DNA from: Lactobacillus sp. W8174
GTDB lineage: Bacteria; Bacillota; Bacilli; Lactobacillales; Lactobacillaceae
Assembly (NCBI RefSeq): GCF_016100975.1
Contig: NZ_JACFRN010000003.1
Location: forward strand, 124,001-188,000
Reading direction: 5' to 3'
DNA: 64,000 nucleotides
Positions 30,825-37,256 of this stretch are shown piece by piece (the stretch's first letter is position 1; every line of letters starts with the position of its first letter). Made by a program: the position numbers and the translations under genes. The notes below the pieces were generated by a model, which saw nothing but the letters and a program-made list of their open reading frames with translations, searched no databases and was not told the DNA's origin.

Positions 30825-30853
30825 TTGACATGCTAATGTTCTTTTTTTATAAT
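30825..30853 (+). promoter_or_regulatory. Consensus sigma-A promoter of the liv operon
   Basis: TTGACA (30825-30830), 17-bp spacer, TATAAT (30848-30853), a perfect match to the consensus. Transcription should begin near 30860, about 30 nt before the leader peptide start. Confidence 0.9.
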
Positions 30854-30889
30854 TCTAAGTATTAAATTAAATTTTGGGAGGCGATTTTA

Positions 30890-30979
30890 ATGAAAGCTAA
30901 ATATTTAAATAAACGAACCAACATTAAAAATATTATTGCCCAGAGTTTAATTGCCTTGTTGTTGTCGTCTAGGACTTAG
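30890..30979 (+). CDS. Leader peptide of the liv operon (attenuation control)
   Basis: 29-residue ORF with a strong GGGAGG site (30876-30881) 8 nt before its ATG. It is rich in branched-chain residues at the end: NIIAQSLIALLL, with three successive TTG Leu codons, then SSRT and stop. A second copy before the other livJ (35795) has the same length and the same ALLL ending though the first half differs, so the codons are under selection. Its last bases, AGGACTTAG, can pair with downstream attenuator strands. This is the layout of a ribosome-mediated attenuator sensing leucine, isoleucine or valine. Function is inferred. Confidence 0.8.
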   Translation: MKAKYLNKRTNIKNIIAQSLIALLLSSRT

Positions 30980-31013
30980 CATGATTAAATTACTTTTAGT
31001 GATTTTACATGAA

Positions 31014-31093
31014 AAGCCCTTGTTTGCGTCTTAATGAATGGGGCTTATCTAATAACTGATCTAAGCCTCATTCATTAAATGAATGAGGTTTTT
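31014..31093 (+). promoter_or_regulatory. Transcription attenuator upstream of livJ
   Basis: Three mutually exclusive hairpins are visible. Strand 1 AAGCCC (31014-31019) pairs with GGGCTT (31041-31046). Strand 2 AATGAATGGGGCTTA (31033-31047) pairs with strand 3 TAAGCCTCATTCATT (31062-31076) as antiterminator. Strand 3 pairs with strand 4 ATGAATGAGG (31079-31088), followed by TTTTT, as terminator (31063-31093). Confidence 0.85.
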
Positions 31094-31124
31094 AGTTACC
31101 AGGCTATTTGAAAAGGAGAAAATG

Positions 31125-32327
31125 ATGAGTAAATTTTCAAAAAGATTGTTGCGTGTTTTAACGGTGGGAATGGCCGGCTTGGCACTAGCTGGTTGTTCCG
31201 TTGCAAAAAGCGGGGGCGGTAAGGGTACACACCAAGATAAAGATGTTGTCAAGGTTGGTATTAACATTGAGCTGTCTGGTACTGCTGCTGGATATGGTAG
31301 TGCTGAAAAGCAAGGCATAGTGTTAGCAGCTTCTGAAATTAATAAAGCCGGTGGAATTAACGTCAACGGGCATAAAAAGAAGCTTAAATTGCTTATCCGT
31401 GATAATAAATCCTCAATAGCTACTTCGGCTTCGGTTGCTGCACAACTGGCAACTAAAGATAAAGTGGCAGCAGTTATAGGGCCGGCTACTACTAATTGTG
31501 GTACCGCTGAAATTCCTAATATTACCAAGGCTTCTGTTCCCGGTATCAGTCCATCTGCAACGGATCCAAACTATACCAGACAAAAAAATGGCAAGGTTCA
31601 GCCTTATGTCTTTAGAGCTTGCTTTCAAGATACTTTCCAAGGAAAGAGCGCTGCTAAATTTGTCACCGATAAATTGAAAGCTAAACGAGTAGCAGTTTAT
31701 GCTGATAACTCCAGTGATTATGGTACTGGTTTAGCAAAGGCCTTCAAAGATACTTATAAAGGCAAGATAGTTGATAGTCAAACATATTCTGCAGGTGATA
31801 AAGATTTCAATGCTGTTTTAACTTCATTTAAATCTAAGAAAATCGATGCTATTTATGTACCGGGTTACTACACAGAGTTAGGTTTGATCATCAAACAGGC
31901 ACGGCAAATGGGTATTAAAGCTCCAATCGTTGGTGGTGACGGTATGTGTGATCCTAAACTCGTTCAAATATCAGGTGCTAAAAACGCAACTGATATTTAC
32001 TACACTACACCATTTTCAACTAATGTAGCTGCCAAGAATCCAGATTCAAAAGCTGCTAAGTTTATCAAAGCATATAAAGCTCGTTACCATGCAGATGCAC
32101 CTACATTTTCAGCTTTAGCATATGATGCAGTTTACTTAGTAAAAACTGCTATTGAAGAACAAAAATCAGATGATTCGGTTAAAATTACTGAAGGTCTAGC
32201 TAAGATTAAAGACTTTGACGGTGTTACTGGCAGAATTACCATGGACAAATTCCACAATCCAGAAATGCCAATTGCTATTGAAAAATTGACTAACGGTAAA
32301 GTAAGCGACTCATTCCGTGTTGAGTAA
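31125..32327 (+). CDS. livJ: Branched-chain amino acid ABC transporter substrate-binding lipoprotein
   Basis: About 400-residue extracellular lipoprotein. The signal sequence ends in the lipobox LAGC (Cys near residue 25), followed by a periplasmic-binding-protein type I fold of the Leu/Ile/Val family (VKVGINIELSGTAAGYG, ATDPNYT, YADNSSDYG). It captures branched-chain amino acids for the LivHMGF permease encoded just downstream. ATG at 31125 has AAGGAG 6 nt upstream; ATG at 31122 is also possible. Expression is likely set by the leader-peptide attenuator directly in front. A close paralog lies at 36051. Confidence 0.92.
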   Translation: MSKFSKRLLRVLTVGMAGLALAGCSVAKSGGGKGTHQDKDVVKVGINIELSGTAAGYGSAEKQGIVLAASEINKAGGINVNGHKKKLKLLIRDNKSSIATSASVAAQLATKDKVAAVIGPATTNCGTAEIPNITKASVPGISPSATDPNYTRQKNGKVQPYVFRACFQDTFQGKSAAKFVTDKLKAKRVAVYADNSSDYGTGLAKAFKDTYKGKIVDSQTYSAGDKDFNAVLTSFKSKKIDAIYVPGYYTELGLIIKQARQMGIKAPIVGGDGMCDPKLVQISGAKNATDIYYTTPFSTNVAAKNPDSKAAKFIKAYKARYHADAPTFSALAYDAVYLVKTAIEEQKSDDSVKITEGLAKIKDFDGVTGRITMDKFHNPEMPIAIEKLTNGKVSDSFRVE

Positions 32328-32354: not shown

Positions 32355-33233
32355 TTGCAAACAGTTTTACAGCAAATCATTAACGCCTTGTCGCTGGGCT
32401 CGATTTATGCCCTGCTGGCTTTAGGCTACAGCATGGTTTATGGCATTATTAATTTAATTAACTTTGCCCACGGCGATATTTATATGCTAGGTGCATTCTT
32501 TGCCTACTATGTTATTAATGCTTGGCATTTTAACTTTATTACAGCACTGCTTTCTGCAATGATTATTGGTGCAGTCTCAGGCGTGGTGATTGAGTATTTT
32601 GCATACCGGCCACTACGTAAGTCACCTCGTATAGCTGTACTGATCACGGCTATCGGTGTATCGTTTTTACTGGAAAACGGTATGTCATATTTTGTAGGAT
32701 CAAATGCTCGCAGTTTCCCCCAAGTAATTGAACAGGTTAATTACAATATCGGTGGAGTGCAAATTTCAAATGTTCAGATTTTGATTTTGGCTACTGCTTT
32801 AATCTTGATGGTTTCCTTGCAGGTCATTATTCAAAAGACCAAAATGGGTCGGGCTATGCGTGCAGTATCCGTAGATCCTGCTGCCGCCGAACTAGTTGGT
32901 GTTAATGTTAATCATACGATTTCATTTACCTTTGCTTTAGGGTCGGCTTTAGCTGGTGCTGCAGGTATCTTAATTGGAATGTACTACAACCAAATCGATC
33001 CTTTAATGGGGATGACACCAGGAATTAAAGCCTTTGTTGCTGCCGTACTTGGTGGAATCGGCTCAGTGCCAGGGGCTTCTATTGGTGGCTTCTTAATCGG
33101 TATCTTGGAAACATTTTTCCAGTCTATCGGTTTGTCGGCATATAAAGACTCAGTTGTTTATCTAGTATTAATAGTCATTTTGCTTTTCTTACCTGCTGGT
33201 ATTTTTGGCAAAAATGCTAAAGAGAAGGTGTAG
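32355..33233 (+). CDS. livH: Branched-chain amino acid ABC transporter permease LivH
   Basis: 292-residue integral membrane protein with about eight helices. It has the family signature GIINLINFAHGDIYMLGAF and a late GGIGSVPGASIGG loop that contacts the ATPases. It forms the channel with LivM. It starts on TTG at 32355 with AGGAG 9 nt upstream, 27 nt after livJ, so the genes are cotranscribed. The following livM starts within 9 nt. Confidence 0.93.
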   Translation: MQTVLQQIINALSLGSIYALLALGYSMVYGIINLINFAHGDIYMLGAFFAYYVINAWHFNFITALLSAMIIGAVSGVVIEYFAYRPLRKSPRIAVLITAIGVSFLLENGMSYFVGSNARSFPQVIEQVNYNIGGVQISNVQILILATALILMVSLQVIIQKTKMGRAMRAVSVDPAAAELVGVNVNHTISFTFALGSALAGAAGILIGMYYNQIDPLMGMTPGIKAFVAAVLGGIGSVPGASIGGFLIGILETFFQSIGLSAYKDSVVYLVLIVILLFLPAGIFGKNAKEKV

Positions 33234-33241
33234 GTGGCAAA

Positions 33242-34198
33242 ATGAAATCGAATTGGAAATACATTTTGTCGTGGCTGTTATTAATGGTAGGCGGCTTTTA
33301 CTTAATCAATGCGTTGATTATGGTCGGCGTGATAGATGATTTTATTGAAAACATGCTGGTCACGATTGGAATAAATATTATTTTAGCTACCGGTTTAAAC
33401 CTGATTATCGGTTTTAGTGGTCAATTTTCTCTGGGCCATGCGGGTTTTATGGCAATTGGAGCATACGCTACCGCGATTATTACTCAACGCATGAGTAGCG
33501 AAGCTGGCTTTTTAATTTCAATGCTAGTAGGTGTCCTGATAGCAATTGTAATTGCTGCGGTTATTGGTACGGCAACTTTCATTCGCTTAAAGGGTGATTA
33601 TTTAGCAATCGCAACTCTAGGAGCAGCTGAAATTATCCGCAATGTCATTAATAATTTGAAAATTACTGGTGGAGCGGCAGGGTTATACAATATTCCTCAG
33701 TTATGCTCATGGCCAACTGTTTATATCTTGGTTTGTGTGACCACAATCATTTTGACAAACTTTATTCGCTCAAAAGACGGTCGGGCAATTAAAGCTGTTC
33801 GTGAAGACGAAATTGCTGCTGAAGCAATGGGAATTAATACTACTAAATGGAAATTGGCTGCTTTCGTTTTAGGTGGCGCAACTGCTGCAATAGCTGGCAG
33901 TCTCCATGCTTCATTCTTGCAAACAATATCTCCTTCAAACTTTGGTATCATGGAATCTATCTCTATCTTAGTTATTGTTGTTTTGGGTGGTGTTGGCAGT
34001 ATGACTGGCACGTTTGTTGCAGCAATCGTTTTAGGCGTTTTAGATACAGTTTTACAAAGTTTCGGTGCGTTAAGAATGGTTATCTATGCAATAGTTCTGA
34101 TACTAATCATGATTTTCAAACCATCAGGACTTTTGGGTAACTGGGAATTCTCTCTTAAAAATTTGACACGCCATTTTGGCAAAAAGGAAAGGAGCTAG
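33242..34198 (+). CDS. livM: Branched-chain amino acid ABC transporter permease LivM
   Basis: 318-residue membrane protein, second permease of the Liv system. It has the typical GFSGQFSLGHAGFMAIGAYA segment near residue 65, the RLKGDYLAIATLGAAEI segment, and GGVGSMTGTFV near the C-terminus. ATG follows AGGTGG; it ends 3 nt before livG, implying tight translational coupling. Together with LivH it forms the membrane pore. Confidence 0.93.
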   Translation: MKSNWKYILSWLLLMVGGFYLINALIMVGVIDDFIENMLVTIGINIILATGLNLIIGFSGQFSLGHAGFMAIGAYATAIITQRMSSEAGFLISMLVGVLIAIVIAAVIGTATFIRLKGDYLAIATLGAAEIIRNVINNLKITGGAAGLYNIPQLCSWPTVYILVCVTTIILTNFIRSKDGRAIKAVREDEIAAEAMGINTTKWKLAAFVLGGATAAIAGSLHASFLQTISPSNFGIMESISILVIVVLGGVGSMTGTFVAAIVLGVLDTVLQSFGALRMVIYAIVLILIMIFKPSGLLGNWEFSLKNLTRHFGKKERS

Positions 34199-34201
34199 TA
34201 T

Positions 34202-34984
34202 ATGCCACACTTATTAGATGTTGACCACGTAGTGCGCAAGTTTGGTGGGTTAACTGCAGTTAATGATGTCTCACTTCATCTGGATAAGCACGAACTAGTT
34301 GCCTTGATTGGTCCTAATGGTGCAGGTAAAACCACTTTGTTTAACTTGCTAACTGGAATGGTGCAAGTTACTAGTGGAAAGATCAACTTGCAAGTTGATG
34401 ATCAAAATTATGATTTAACGCATAAAAGTGCTGTGCAAATTGCAGACTTAGGTTTATCCCGTACATTTCAAAATATTCGCTTATTTAAAGACTTAACTGT
34501 TATGGATAATGTTCTAACTGCAATGACAAATGAATACAAAGAAAACTTTTTAACAACAGTTTTTCGTTTACCCAGTTTTTATAAAACGGAAAAGGAAATG
34601 AAGGAAGCTGCGCAAAAGTTATTAGCAATCTTTGATTTAACGGATAATGAACAAACTTTGGCTAAGAACTTGCCTTATGGAACGCAAAGACGCTTGGAAA
34701 TAGTACGTGCTTTGGCTACTCACCCGCAGATTCTTTTCCTGGATGAACCTGCTGCTGGTATGAACCCAGAAGAAACAGCGGATTTGACTAATCTTATTAA
34801 ATATATTCAGAAGGAATTTCAGATCACGGTTTTGTTAATTGAGCATGACATGTCTTTAGTTATGAACCTGGCTGAAAGAATCTATGTACTTGATCAAGGC
34901 GAGATATTGGCTACCGGATCGCCTGAAGAAATTAAGGCCAATCCTAAAGTTGTTGAAGCATATCTAGGAGAGGGTGATGACTAG
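34202..34984 (+). CDS. livG: Branched-chain amino acid ABC transporter ATPase LivG
   Basis: 260-residue ATPase with Walker A GPNGAGKTT, Q-loop LSRTFQNIRLF, a family-specific insertion around residues 100-140, signature LPYGTQRR (the LSGGQ equivalent in LivG proteins), Walker B ILFLDEPAAGMNP and switch His in IEHDM. ATG follows AAAGGAG. The stop codon touches the start of livF. Confidence 0.94.
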   Translation: MPHLLDVDHVVRKFGGLTAVNDVSLHLDKHELVALIGPNGAGKTTLFNLLTGMVQVTSGKINLQVDDQNYDLTHKSAVQIADLGLSRTFQNIRLFKDLTVMDNVLTAMTNEYKENFLTTVFRLPSFYKTEKEMKEAAQKLLAIFDLTDNEQTLAKNLPYGTQRRLEIVRALATHPQILFLDEPAAGMNPEETADLTNLIKYIQKEFQITVLLIEHDMSLVMNLAERIYVLDQGEILATGSPEEIKANPKVVEAYLGEGDD

Positions 34985-35695
34985 ATGGCAATGTTAGAAG
35001 TTCGTGACTTGTCTGTAAATTATGGTGTTATTCAAGCTGTTAAGAATGTCAGTTTTGAAATTAACCAAGGTGAAATCGTAACCCTAATTGGAGCTAATGG
35101 AGCTGGTAAGTCAACTATTGTTAAGACAATTTCTGGCTTGTTAAAACCCAAAAGTGGTCAAATTTTCTACCTTGGCGAAGAAATAGATCACAAAAGTGCT
35201 CCGCAAATTGTGAGCGCGGGTATCTCTCAAGTAGCAGAAGGTCGGCATATTTTTGCTGGAATGACCGTAATGGAGAATCTGCAGATGGGTGCTTTTTTGC
35301 AAAAGAATCATGATGAAGTTTCAAAAACCTACAAAGACATTTTTGAACGCTTTCCAATTTTGCAGAAAAGGCGTAATCAGGATGCAGCTACCCTGTCTGG
35401 TGGTGAGCAGCAAATGTTGGCCATGGGTCGTGCCTTAATGGCAAAGCCAAAATTGTTGCTGCTTGATGAACCATCAATGGGTTTATCACCCCTGTATATT
35501 CAAGAAATATTTAAAATTATTAAAGAACTAAACGAAAAAGGTACCACTATTTTGTTGATAGAACAAAATGCTAAACAAGCTCTATCTATTGCCGATCGTG
35601 GTTATGTATTGGCAACAGGAGTAGTGCAATTAAGTGGTACTGGTCAAGAATTGTTGGCTAACCCGGAAGTACAGAAAGTATATTTTGGTGGTTAG
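34985..35695 (+). CDS. livF: Branched-chain amino acid ABC transporter ATPase LivF
   Basis: 236-residue ATPase with Walker A GANGAGKST, the LivF-specific QVAEGRHIFAGMTVMENL segment, signature LSGGEQQML, Walker B LLLLDEPSMGLSP and the IEQN switch region. It starts directly on the base after the livG stop codon. It powers import with LivG. The operon appears to end here; the next 355 bp carry the promoter, leader and attenuator of a second livJ. Confidence 0.94.
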   Translation: MAMLEVRDLSVNYGVIQAVKNVSFEINQGEIVTLIGANGAGKSTIVKTISGLLKPKSGQIFYLGEEIDHKSAPQIVSAGISQVAEGRHIFAGMTVMENLQMGAFLQKNHDEVSKTYKDIFERFPILQKRRNQDAATLSGGEQQMLAMGRALMAKPKLLLLDEPSMGLSPLYIQEIFKIIKELNEKGTTILLIEQNAKQALSIADRGYVLATGVVQLSGTGQELLANPEVQKVYFGG

Positions 35696-35734
35696 TGGTA
35701 ATCAAGTTGTTGTAATGACAATGATGTTAATTCA

Positions 35735-35763
35735 TTGTTAAGTCAGATAGTGAAAACTATAGA
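35735..35763 (+). promoter_or_regulatory. Promoter of the second livJ
   Basis: TTGTTA (35735-35740), 17-bp spacer, TATAGA (35758-35763). This places the transcript start near 35770, before the AGGAGG site of the second leader peptide. Confidence 0.65.
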
Positions 35764-35794
35764 GTTTACATAAAATTCTGAGGAGGTAATTGTG

Positions 35795-35884
35795 ATGGAA
35801 ACGAAATATTTTAAACAAAAAAGTAATATGAATATCTTTCAAACTCAGGATTTAGTTGCCTTGTTGTTGGAGCGCAGGACTTAA
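35795..35884 (+). CDS. Leader peptide of the second livJ (attenuation control)
   Basis: 29-residue ORF with AGGAGG (35781-35786) upstream. It ends DLVALLLERRT and stop, matching the first leader in length and in the final ALLL-x-x-RT, with the same TTG TTG TTG run, while the N-terminal half differs. The final bases AGGACTTAAC can pair with strand 1 of the attenuator (GTTAAGCCC). Codons for Leu and Val just before this pairing strand suit amino-acid sensing by stalled ribosomes. Confidence 0.8.
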   Translation: METKYFKQKSNMNIFQTQDLVALLLERRT

Positions 35885-35916
35885 CATACATGAATTACGT
35901 GATGTAATTTATAGTA

Positions 35917-36003
35917 GTTAAGCCCTAGTTTGCGTGTCAATGATTGGGGTTTAACTAATTGATAATTTAAGCCTCATTCATTGATTTGAATGAGGCTTTT
36001 TTG
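35917..36003 (+). promoter_or_regulatory. Transcription attenuator upstream of second livJ
   Basis: Strand 1 GTTAAGCCC (35917-35925) pairs with GGGTTTAAC (35947-35955). Strand 2 CAATGATTGGGGTTTAA (35938-35954) pairs with strand 3 TTAAGCCTCATTCATTG (35967-35983). Strand 3 pairs with strand 4 TGAATGAGGCTT (35987-35998), 12 bp, followed by T, as terminator. Same logic as at 31014-31093, with different bases in several pairs. Confidence 0.85.
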
Positions 36004-36050
36004 TGGTCAATTTTAGTTAAAGAATAGAAAGAATAGTTAGAAGGAACAAG

Positions 36051-37256
36051 ATGATGGATAATATTAGCGGTATTAAGAAGATAATGAATGTTGTAATCAC
36101 TGGCATGGCTGCTTTTATGCTGGCAGGCTGTACTGTTGCTAAAAGCAGTAGTGGGGATGGAACTAAGCAAGATAAAGATTCAGTCAAAATTGGCGTTAAC
36201 ATGGAGTTGTCTGGAGCTGCAGCCGGTTATGGCAACGCTCAAAAGCAAGGTATTCAATTAGCAGTTAGTGAAATTAATAAAAAAGGCGGCATTGATGTTA
36301 ATGGTCATAAGAAAAAAATCAAACTGATCATGCGTGATAATAAAACTGCTATTTCTACTTCTGCTTCAGTTGCTGCCCAATTAGCTACAAAAGAAAAGGT
36401 AGCAGCAATTGTAGGACCGGCAACTACTAATGCTGGCACAGCTGAAATTCCTAATATTACTAAGGCTAAGGTACCAAGTGTCAGTCCTTCGGCGACAGAT
36501 CCAAATTACACTTTACAAAAGAATGGTAAAGTGCAGCCATTTGTTTTTAGGGCATGTTACCAAAATAATTTTCAAGGTGGTAGTGCAGCCAAATTCGTAA
36601 TGAATAACATTAAGGCAAAGAGAGTGGCTGTCTATACTGACAATTCAAGTGACTATGGTAACGGTCTTGCTAAAGCATTTAAGAAAACTTATAAAGGCAA
36701 GATAGTTGATAGTCAGACATTTTCAGAAGGTGACAAAGATTTTAACGCTGTATTAACTTCGTTTAAAGCTAAGAAAGTCGATGCTATTTACGTTCCTGGC
36801 TACTACACGGAAGTTGGCTTAATAATTAAGCAAGCGCGTCAAATTGGAATTAAGGCACCAATTGTCGGTAGTGATGGTATGGCTGATCCGAAGCTGGTAC
36901 AAATTGCTGGTGCTAAAAATGCAAGTAAAATCTACTATACTACGCCATTTTCAACACAGGTAGCTGCCAAGGATCCAACTGCTTCTAAATTTATGAGTGA
37001 TTTCAAGAACCGCTACCATGAAGAAGCACCAACTTTTTCTGCTTTAGCTTATGATGCGGTATATATGATTAAAGAAGCAATCGAAAATGAAAAATCCGAT
37101 GATTCTGCAAAAATCACGAAGGGTCTGGAACAAATTAAAGATTTTACTGGCGTAACTGGGAAAATCACAGTAGATAAAGATCATAATCCTGAAAAACCAA
37201 TTGCTGTAGAAGAATTAATTAATGGCAAAGTGGGTAAAACTTTTAAAATTGAATAA
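36051..37256 (+). CDS. Second branched-chain amino acid substrate-binding lipoprotein (LivJ paralog)
   Basis: 401-residue lipoprotein with lipobox MLAGC (Cys near residue 25) and the same type I binding fold as the livJ at 31125, with most blocks identical (SLTSF-type interior, VYTDNSSDYGNGL). Differences near the binding cleft, for example GSDGMADP in place of GGDGMCDP, may change specificity. It has no own permease or ATPase and presumably feeds the LivHMGF complex, adding a second affinity or substrate. Its separate promoter and attenuator allow independent control. A bidirectional terminator follows. Confidence 0.9.
   Translation: MMDNISGIKKIMNVVITGMAAFMLAGCTVAKSSSGDGTKQDKDSVKIGVNMELSGAAAGYGNAQKQGIQLAVSEINKKGGIDVNGHKKKIKLIMRDNKTAISTSASVAAQLATKEKVAAIVGPATTNAGTAEIPNITKAKVPSVSPSATDPNYTLQKNGKVQPFVFRACYQNNFQGGSAAKFVMNNIKAKRVAVYTDNSSDYGNGLAKAFKKTYKGKIVDSQTFSEGDKDFNAVLTSFKAKKVDAIYVPGYYTEVGLIIKQARQIGIKAPIVGSDGMADPKLVQIAGAKNASKIYYTTPFSTQVAAKDPTASKFMSDFKNRYHEEAPTFSALAYDAVYMIKEAIENEKSDDSAKITKGLEQIKDFTGVTGKITVDKDHNPEKPIAVEELINGKVGKTFKIE

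Follow-up and report, generated by a model that had tools for sequence, protein, structure and literature searches.

Organization of the livJHMGF leader region

The stretch of DNA analyzed here, referred to as the window, comprises 64,000 nucleotides of Lactobacillus sp. W8174 (contig NZ_JACFRN010000003.1, positions 124,001 to 188,000 of the forward strand), and all coordinates are positions within it. It carries a promoter, a short leader reading frame and a series of complementary RNA strands (s-1 to s4) ahead of transport genes in the order livJ-H-M-G-F, an order backed by the best NCBIfam hits, none of which passes its curated cut-off. A diverged second copy of the element (35795–36002) lies after livF and before a second livJ-like gene.

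30825–30853, + strand: sigma-70 type promoter, TTGACA-17-TATAAT, 12/12 match
30876–30881, + strand: leader ribosome-binding site GGGAGG, assigned from sequence
30890–30979, + strand: 29-codon leader peptide MKAKYLNKRTNIKNIIAQSLIALLLSSRT followed by a stop codon, an open reading frame
30953–30964, + strand: s-1, regulatory codons for Ala-Leu-Leu-Leu, GCCTTGTTGTTG, with complementarity to s2
30971–30979, + strand: s0, AGGACTTAG, the final leader codons and stop; partner s1
31012–31020, + strand: s1, AAAAGCCCT; partner s0 or s2
31030–31047, + strand: s2; partner s1 (anti-antiterminator) or s3 (antiterminator)
31062–31078, + strand: s3; partner s2 (antiterminator) or s4 (terminator)
31080–31093, + strand: s4 with U-run, predicted intrinsic terminator
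31125–32327, + strand: livJ, branched-chain amino acid binding protein (Peripla_BP_6, 3.4e-52; best NCBIfam hit of LivJ type, below cut-off)
32355–35695, + strand: livH, livM, livG and livF (best NCBIfam hits LivH, LivM, LivG and LivF, each below its curated cut-off)
35795–35884, + strand: second leader peptide, METKYFKQKSNMNIFQTQDLVALLLERRT followed by a stop codon; translation could also start at the in-frame GTG at 35792
35858–36002, + strand: second putative attenuator, 148.6 bits with covariance model R1, which was partly built from it
35858–35869, 35876–35885 and 35917–35926, + strand: s-1, s0 and s1 of the second copy
35937–35958, 35967–35984 and 35987–36002, + strand: s2, s3 and s4 with U-run of the second copy
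36051–37256, + strand: second livJ-like gene, encoding a binding protein with 76% identity to the first LivJ (Peripla_BP_6, 4.1e-57)

The perfect promoter and the 29-codon leader with its ribosome site that an initial annotation of this DNA had described are both present, although the leader does not end at LIALLL as that annotation had it: four further codons (SSRT) follow. Between 30000 and 38000 the promoter is the sole 12/12 match among 15 sites scoring at least 9/12; shuffled versions of the same region contain a mean of 25.7 promoter-like sites of at least 9/12, of any grade. On the forward strand from 33655 to 37222 there is no promoter-like site of at least 9/12, and for this reason we infer that the second copy is probably an internal attenuator.

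Downstream of the first leader, the inverted repeats 2:3 (31031–31047 with 31062–31078) and 3:4 (31063–31076 with 31078–31091) are mutually exclusive, and 1:2 (31011–31019 with 31041–31049) is incompatible with 2:3. The three exclusive hairpins of the initial annotation are thus all found, but a fourth exists, formed by s0 and s1, the latter starting 33 bases 3' of the leader stop codon. The predicted fold of 30860–31100 has a z score of -4.30, and none of 200 shuffles equals it.

Distribution of the element and its target genes

Homologs were sought with three covariance models: R1, built from 16 elements; R2, built from 68 elements, none from a genus that is probably Staphylococcus; and R3, built from 65 elements with the leader codons omitted, which included four loci of that genus. 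R1 matched 24 of 75 genomes of the window's genus (E up to 0.01) and 98 of 397 genomes of its family, in 16 of 40 genera with the window's own included (E up to 0.001). Opposite-strand echoes of the near-palindromic structure among the listed places were excluded from element counts. The closest LivJ relatives (93–99% identity) come from Lactobacillus laiwuensis, huangpiensis, kimbladii, kullabergensis and melliventris, and from one MAG; the named species are, like the Lactobacillus studied here, inhabitants of the bee gut.

The 75 genus genomes hold 36 LivJ genes reaching E 1e-60. All 31 close ones (at least 72% identity) have an element 21–74 bases upstream, and the five diverged ones (51–54% identity) have no R1 match at E up to 0.01. 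With filters off, each of these five loci (L284–L288) gives one weak match at the expected place (15.4–18.1 bits; E 0.0048–0.016 for 3,457 bases). By eye, they show a leader with VITLL codons (VIARL in one) and the same strand order in largely changed letters (AGAGCTC type versus AGGACTT). At 22 LivJ loci of Enterococcus, Bavariicoccus and Streptococcus (L040–L061; 49–56% identity), R3 found no match at E up to 1, and the best E with R1 on this same set was 0.22.

We classified 123 elements, 37 from the genus searches and 86 from the family searches, the latter taken down to about E 1.3e-5, below which lay 21 weaker places. The downstream gene encodes LivJ in 92, LeuA in 19, an OppA-like protein in six, LeuB in four and an SBP_bac_3 protein in one, and one element abuts a contig end; gene families were checked on representatives, and those of LeuA and LeuB pass an NCBIfam cut-off.

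In the order, R2 matched 31 of 395 genomes, 14 of them outside the family. In the class it matched five of 200, namely the window's own and four of the probable Staphylococcus genus, at least six further genomes of which, judged by handle numbers, went unmatched in that sample. R3 matched 58 of 61 genomes of this genus and 57 of 295 in the order, 47 outside the family; in a phylum sample of 199 genomes it matched none besides the window's own. We inspected 53 distinct loci outside the family, a part of the places listed (L264 repeats L211). A run of branched-chain codons is present in 52 of them, even though R3 omits the leader codons; the sole exception, L275, lies in a tRNA neighbourhood and was taken as spurious.

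Outside the family, leaders before ilvD read LVIIL, VILLL, IIILL and similar, and IIIII leaders precede a probable ilvE and some livJ-like genes. Further targets are leuA, a probable ilvB, CstA, a PTS_EIIC_2 protein, and transporters of the OppB and BASS types. The names IlvE and IlvB are our presumption from the look of the sequences, and no Pfam match was obtained with 110 residues of the probable IlvE. Three side observations concern these targets. Five livJ-like genes outside Lactobacillaceae (L213, L214, L215, L261 and L276) have five-Ile leaders, not three Leu. Ile-rich leaders precede BASS-type (SBF) transporters at L247, L266, L269 and L272, of which L247 alone has a Pfam basis; judging by the leader, their substrate may be a branched-chain amino acid or keto acid. 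At L204, a CstA gene follows a leader with LVLLI codons and the s0–s4 module. The element thus appears to be a recurrent RNA module rather than a single leader, shared by many lactobacilli and by part of the related bacteria.

Selection on the leader codons

Taking the start with the best ribosome site in each element, an in-frame leader with a ribosome site of five or six of six bases is found in 122 of the 123. The exception (L189) has a leader ending ARLIIIKDSGT in another frame. The initial annotation had named homologs lacking conserved Leu codons or strands as evidence that would count against it. The homologs retain both: leucine occupies 354 of 366 regulatory positions (three in each of 122 leaders), and the strands coevolve, as set out below. 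These leucines are written in five different codons (TTA 170, TTG 139, CTA 34, CTC 10 and CTG 1), and the rest of the leader peptide is highly variable, its N-terminal residues included. Four of six OppA-type leaders carry an additional base that shifts the frame after LLL (KDLT versus RT) and leaves the s0 letters unchanged, so that the amino acid constraint is separable from the RNA constraint. Judged from sequence comparison, the leader is selected as a coding sequence.

The W8174 genome, 99.99% complete, contains no PF00682 (LeuA-type) match. Its gene content suggests that the organism probably cannot make leucine; leucine uptake should therefore matter.

Coevolution of the alternative pairings

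The initial annotation had proposed covariation across homologs as a check. In our swap test, the strands of 69 elements less than 85% identical were exchanged among elements in 2000 permutations, without correction for kinship. For 0:1, 1:2, 2:3 and 3:4 alike, none of the 2000 permutations was as good as the cognate combination, and the control pairings were flat (0:2, 1311/2000; 1:3, 306/2000). The annotation had also let s0 pair with either strand 1 or strand 3; the first pairing survives, and the second was rejected, as 340 of 2000 permutations did as well.

Alignment-based measures are consistent with these helices to varying degrees. In a structure-fitted alignment of 68 elements (A4), covariation was 0.281 versus at most 0.103 in slid controls. 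A free alignment of 65 elements gave 0.311 versus at most 0.130 for 1:2 plus 3:4, and 0.244 versus at most 0.210 for 0:1 plus 2:3, the second value standing little above that of the control slid by -1. An initial alignment, confined to 16 genus elements, showed weak covariation. An example from 0:1 is the pair 26:110, which among 68 elements is CG in 40, UA in 24, UG in two and unpaired in two. Under a simulated null that keeps the phylogeny, just two structural pairs, both in the lower terminator, reached E < 0.2, as did two other column pairs, one within the codons and one within s0; with two partners for every strand, this test probably has little power. The comparison of homologs shows the parts of the element, their conservation and the coevolution of the pairings.

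Two further features were observed in this region. Inside 0:1, position 30974 frequently forms an A-C mismatch with 31017 (A4 columns 23/113); the site is unpaired in 52 of 68 elements and A-U in 16, and the mismatch may set the balance of 0:1 and 1:2. A T-rich motif, often TTTGCGT, is kept in the s1–s2 loop (31021–31030 in the window, and in homologs); it is little paired in either fold and resembles a polymerase pause sequence.

The regulatory codons themselves, x-GCC-Leu-Leu-Leu, are complementary to s2. No permutation of 2000 equaled the cognate codon:s2 pairing in the swap test, fewer than 5% of shuffles equal it in 57 of 68 elements, and the controls were flat (s1, 1929/2000; s3, 1161/2000). 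The codon strand also scores with s4 (0/2000), as expected from the resemblance of s4 to s2. Against random synonymous recoding, the mean z was -1.5, with fewer than 10% of recodings as good in 36 of 68 elements. The conserved Ala codon is GCC in 95 of 122 leaders, and the codon-strand pairing, if real, accounts for this near-fixed GCC and for codon choice at the Leu run.

An alternative reading would be the classic four-strand leader attenuator, in which 0:1 and codon:s2 have no role and the ribosome, by release or by stalling, affects 1:2 alone. Its three helices, 1:2, 2:3 and 3:4, are the best supported, and the Listeria monocytogenes attenuator Rli60 is modeled with four segments (PMC5864092). 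Two results nevertheless make it unlikely: s1 begins too far past the stop to be masked by a ribosome positioned on the Leu codons, and 0:1 coevolves, both in the swap test and at the pair 26:110.

Proposed mechanism and predicted switching

We consider it very likely that the element before livJHMGF is a leucine-responsive, ribosome-mediated transcription attenuator; its translation, ribosome stalling, termination and leucine dependence are what we infer from the comparisons above. RNA polymerase would make the leader and a ribosome would translate its 29 codons. With leucine plentiful, the ribosome at the stop would cover s0, allowing 1:2 and then the 3:4 terminator to form, with transcripts ending near 31093. 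With leucine scarce, a stall on Leu-Leu-Leu would leave s0 free to pair with s1, releasing s2 for the 2:3 antiterminator and allowing livJHMGF to be transcribed. Ribosome-mediated attenuation of livJHMGF, as the initial annotation had it, is supported, with leucine supply as the best reading of the signal; the sensing codons would be the LLL before s0 rather than early Ile and Leu codons.

A proposed addition concerns RNA without a ribosome: the codons would then pair with s2, s0 would hold s1, and s3 would make the terminator. Read-through would come only from a ribosome stalled on the codons, with s2 uncovered and s0 free. More broadly, we suggest tentatively, as a possibility that falls somewhat short of probable, that one uncatalogued RNA family of Lactobacillales and a Staphylococcus-like genus acts as an AND gate, in which untranslated codons mask s2 and read-through occurs only with a ribosome stalled on them, and that this module is reused for uptake or synthesis by a change of codons. 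The codons would be matched to the target: LLL for leu genes and the liv genes of Lactobacillaceae, mixed runs for ilvD, and IIIII for a probable ilvE and some other liv genes.

We calculated equilibrium folding for 68 elements, the folded stretch running from the edge of the ribosome through s3. The mean number of 2:3 pairs was 11.1 with the ribosome stalled at the first Leu, 4.9 with it at the stop and 6.2 when untranslated. A stall raised 2:3 over the stop state by more than two pairs in 41 of 68 elements; by element, 32 behaved as proposed in all three states, nine only in stall over stop, seven only in stall over untranslated, and 20 in neither. The first window copy (its stretch identical to G071a) is among these 20: it shows no predicted equilibrium switch, with about 17 pairs of 2:3 regardless of ribosome state as soon as s3 has been transcribed. 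The second copy (G000b) is predicted to switch between stall and stop and shows no switch against the untranslated state. For both window copies, the untranslated state is thus predicted to give read-through. Once the whole terminator is transcribed, 3:4 forms in most elements at any ribosome position (means of 10.3–11.3 pairs); since this holds whatever the ribosome state, switching in the model would have to be kinetic.

The constant antiterminator predicted for the first copy is what one would expect of a constitutive or leaky terminator, with the leader peptide acting otherwise, as an arrest peptide or through translational coupling. The residues of arrest peptides, however, are not known to vary widely, unlike those outside the Leu run here, and the second window copy does switch between stall and stop in the calculation. 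We regard this alternative as very unlikely. Our confidence in both the attenuator and the AND-gate readings is slightly lowered by the empty enterococcal loci and by the untranslated state of one Staphylococcus-like element (L225), described below.

Relation to known RNA families and published attenuators

An Rfam scan of the window found no family reaching its threshold, T-box and Leu_leader included, and no T-box (RF00230) match was found at the element in the window or at eight loci searched to E 5. T-boxes and the known Rfam leaders were thus rejected as candidates. Among the 11 Rfam matches at these eight loci, Leu_leader (RF00512) is absent, and those overlapping the element are sub-threshold and unrelated (PyrR, E 1.8; rnk_pseudo, 2.2; cow-rumen-4, 4.5). 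Separately, L125 has a T-box match at 4–183, below the Rfam threshold (52.5 bits versus 93; E 5.1e-9), about 1.3 kb upstream and on the other strand. In Rfam Leu_leader and other enterobacterial leader attenuators, leader-peptide Leu codons control leucine genes; the element here is alike in its leader Leu codons, but in the window Leu_leader does not reach its threshold. That the element is a T-box or a metabolite riboswitch, its short open reading frame being accidental, is scarcely credible, even though many lactobacillar amino acid genes are under T-boxes (PMC2494555), given that no Rfam family reaches its threshold in the window and that the reading frame keeps leucine despite codon changes.

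Leader-peptide attenuation of branched-chain amino acid genes is a mechanism of a kind already known, and two published examples look, by sequence, like members of this RNA family: the attenuators of Staphylococcus aureus ilvD and of Listeria Rli60. A single covariance model (R3) finds the same s0–s4 order in both Listeria-like and Staphylococcus-like loci. As described in PMC5794164, S. aureus ilvD has a short leader with an Ile/Leu run, a terminator and Leu-dependent repression, with genetic support. The R3 locus L225, presumably of the S. aureus group, carries a leader of 26 codons in which three Ile are followed by two Leu, with three more Leu besides, leader codons as in that description; it also has strands s0–s4. 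The published system differs from ours in its target, biosynthesis rather than uptake, and in its antiterminator, where the U-run pairs with a GAAUGG motif instead of s3 with s2 (PMC5794164).

A change of a leader Leu codon to stop raised ilvD promoter activity in S. aureus (PMC5794164); early release of a ribosome that never covers s0 would raise ilvD in our model. Placed on L224/L225, the suppressors given there read in one register as a stop at codon 19 and point changes in s1, and in a second register as a stop at codon 22 and changes in the s1–s2 loop.

In Listeria monocytogenes, Rli60 comprises a 13-codon branched-chain leader before ilvD, and reporter and mutant experiments show ribosome-mediated attenuation; start-codon and ribosome-site mutants lowered ilvD expression (PMC5864092). 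Loci L267 and L268 carry a 13-codon leader, MKTTKSVITILLL, before ilvD with strands s0–s4; their assignment to Listeria, and with it the link to Rli60, is presumptive. Rli60 was published with four segments, versus s0–s4 here, and its target is biosynthesis, versus uptake here (PMC5864092). In our folding of L268, 2:3 is scant when untranslated (1.8 and 1.5 pairs at 15 and 19 bases into s3, respectively) versus 8.8 pairs when stalled; L225 does not show this, its corresponding values being 6.2 and 6.0 versus 8.0. The mutant effects in both species were compared with the model after the fact, not predicted beforehand.

The Corynebacterium glutamicum ilvBNC leader (PMC11857589) likewise has terminator, antiterminator and anti-antiterminator hairpins; this is an actinobacterial biosynthetic operon, and the likeness in the three hairpin kinds is one of description only. 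In the portions of the open-access literature consulted (including PMC2965389, PMC2494555 and PMC3766115), we found no prior description of the element before liv genes in lactobacilli, and in the same body of text none of its spread as one family or of the codon strand.

Implications

In summary, the family appears to connect the transport and leucine genes of lactobacilli with two attenuators that were studied separately, S. aureus ilvD and Listeria Rli60, and one structural model, whose pairings can be tested, covers them all. Genes such as livJ, leuA, leuB and those of oppA-like type can be annotated at the operon level with it, and it could become a new Rfam entry. For the organisms themselves, it would account for the way in which lactobacilli auxotrophic for leucine adjust its uptake to charged tRNA-Leu.
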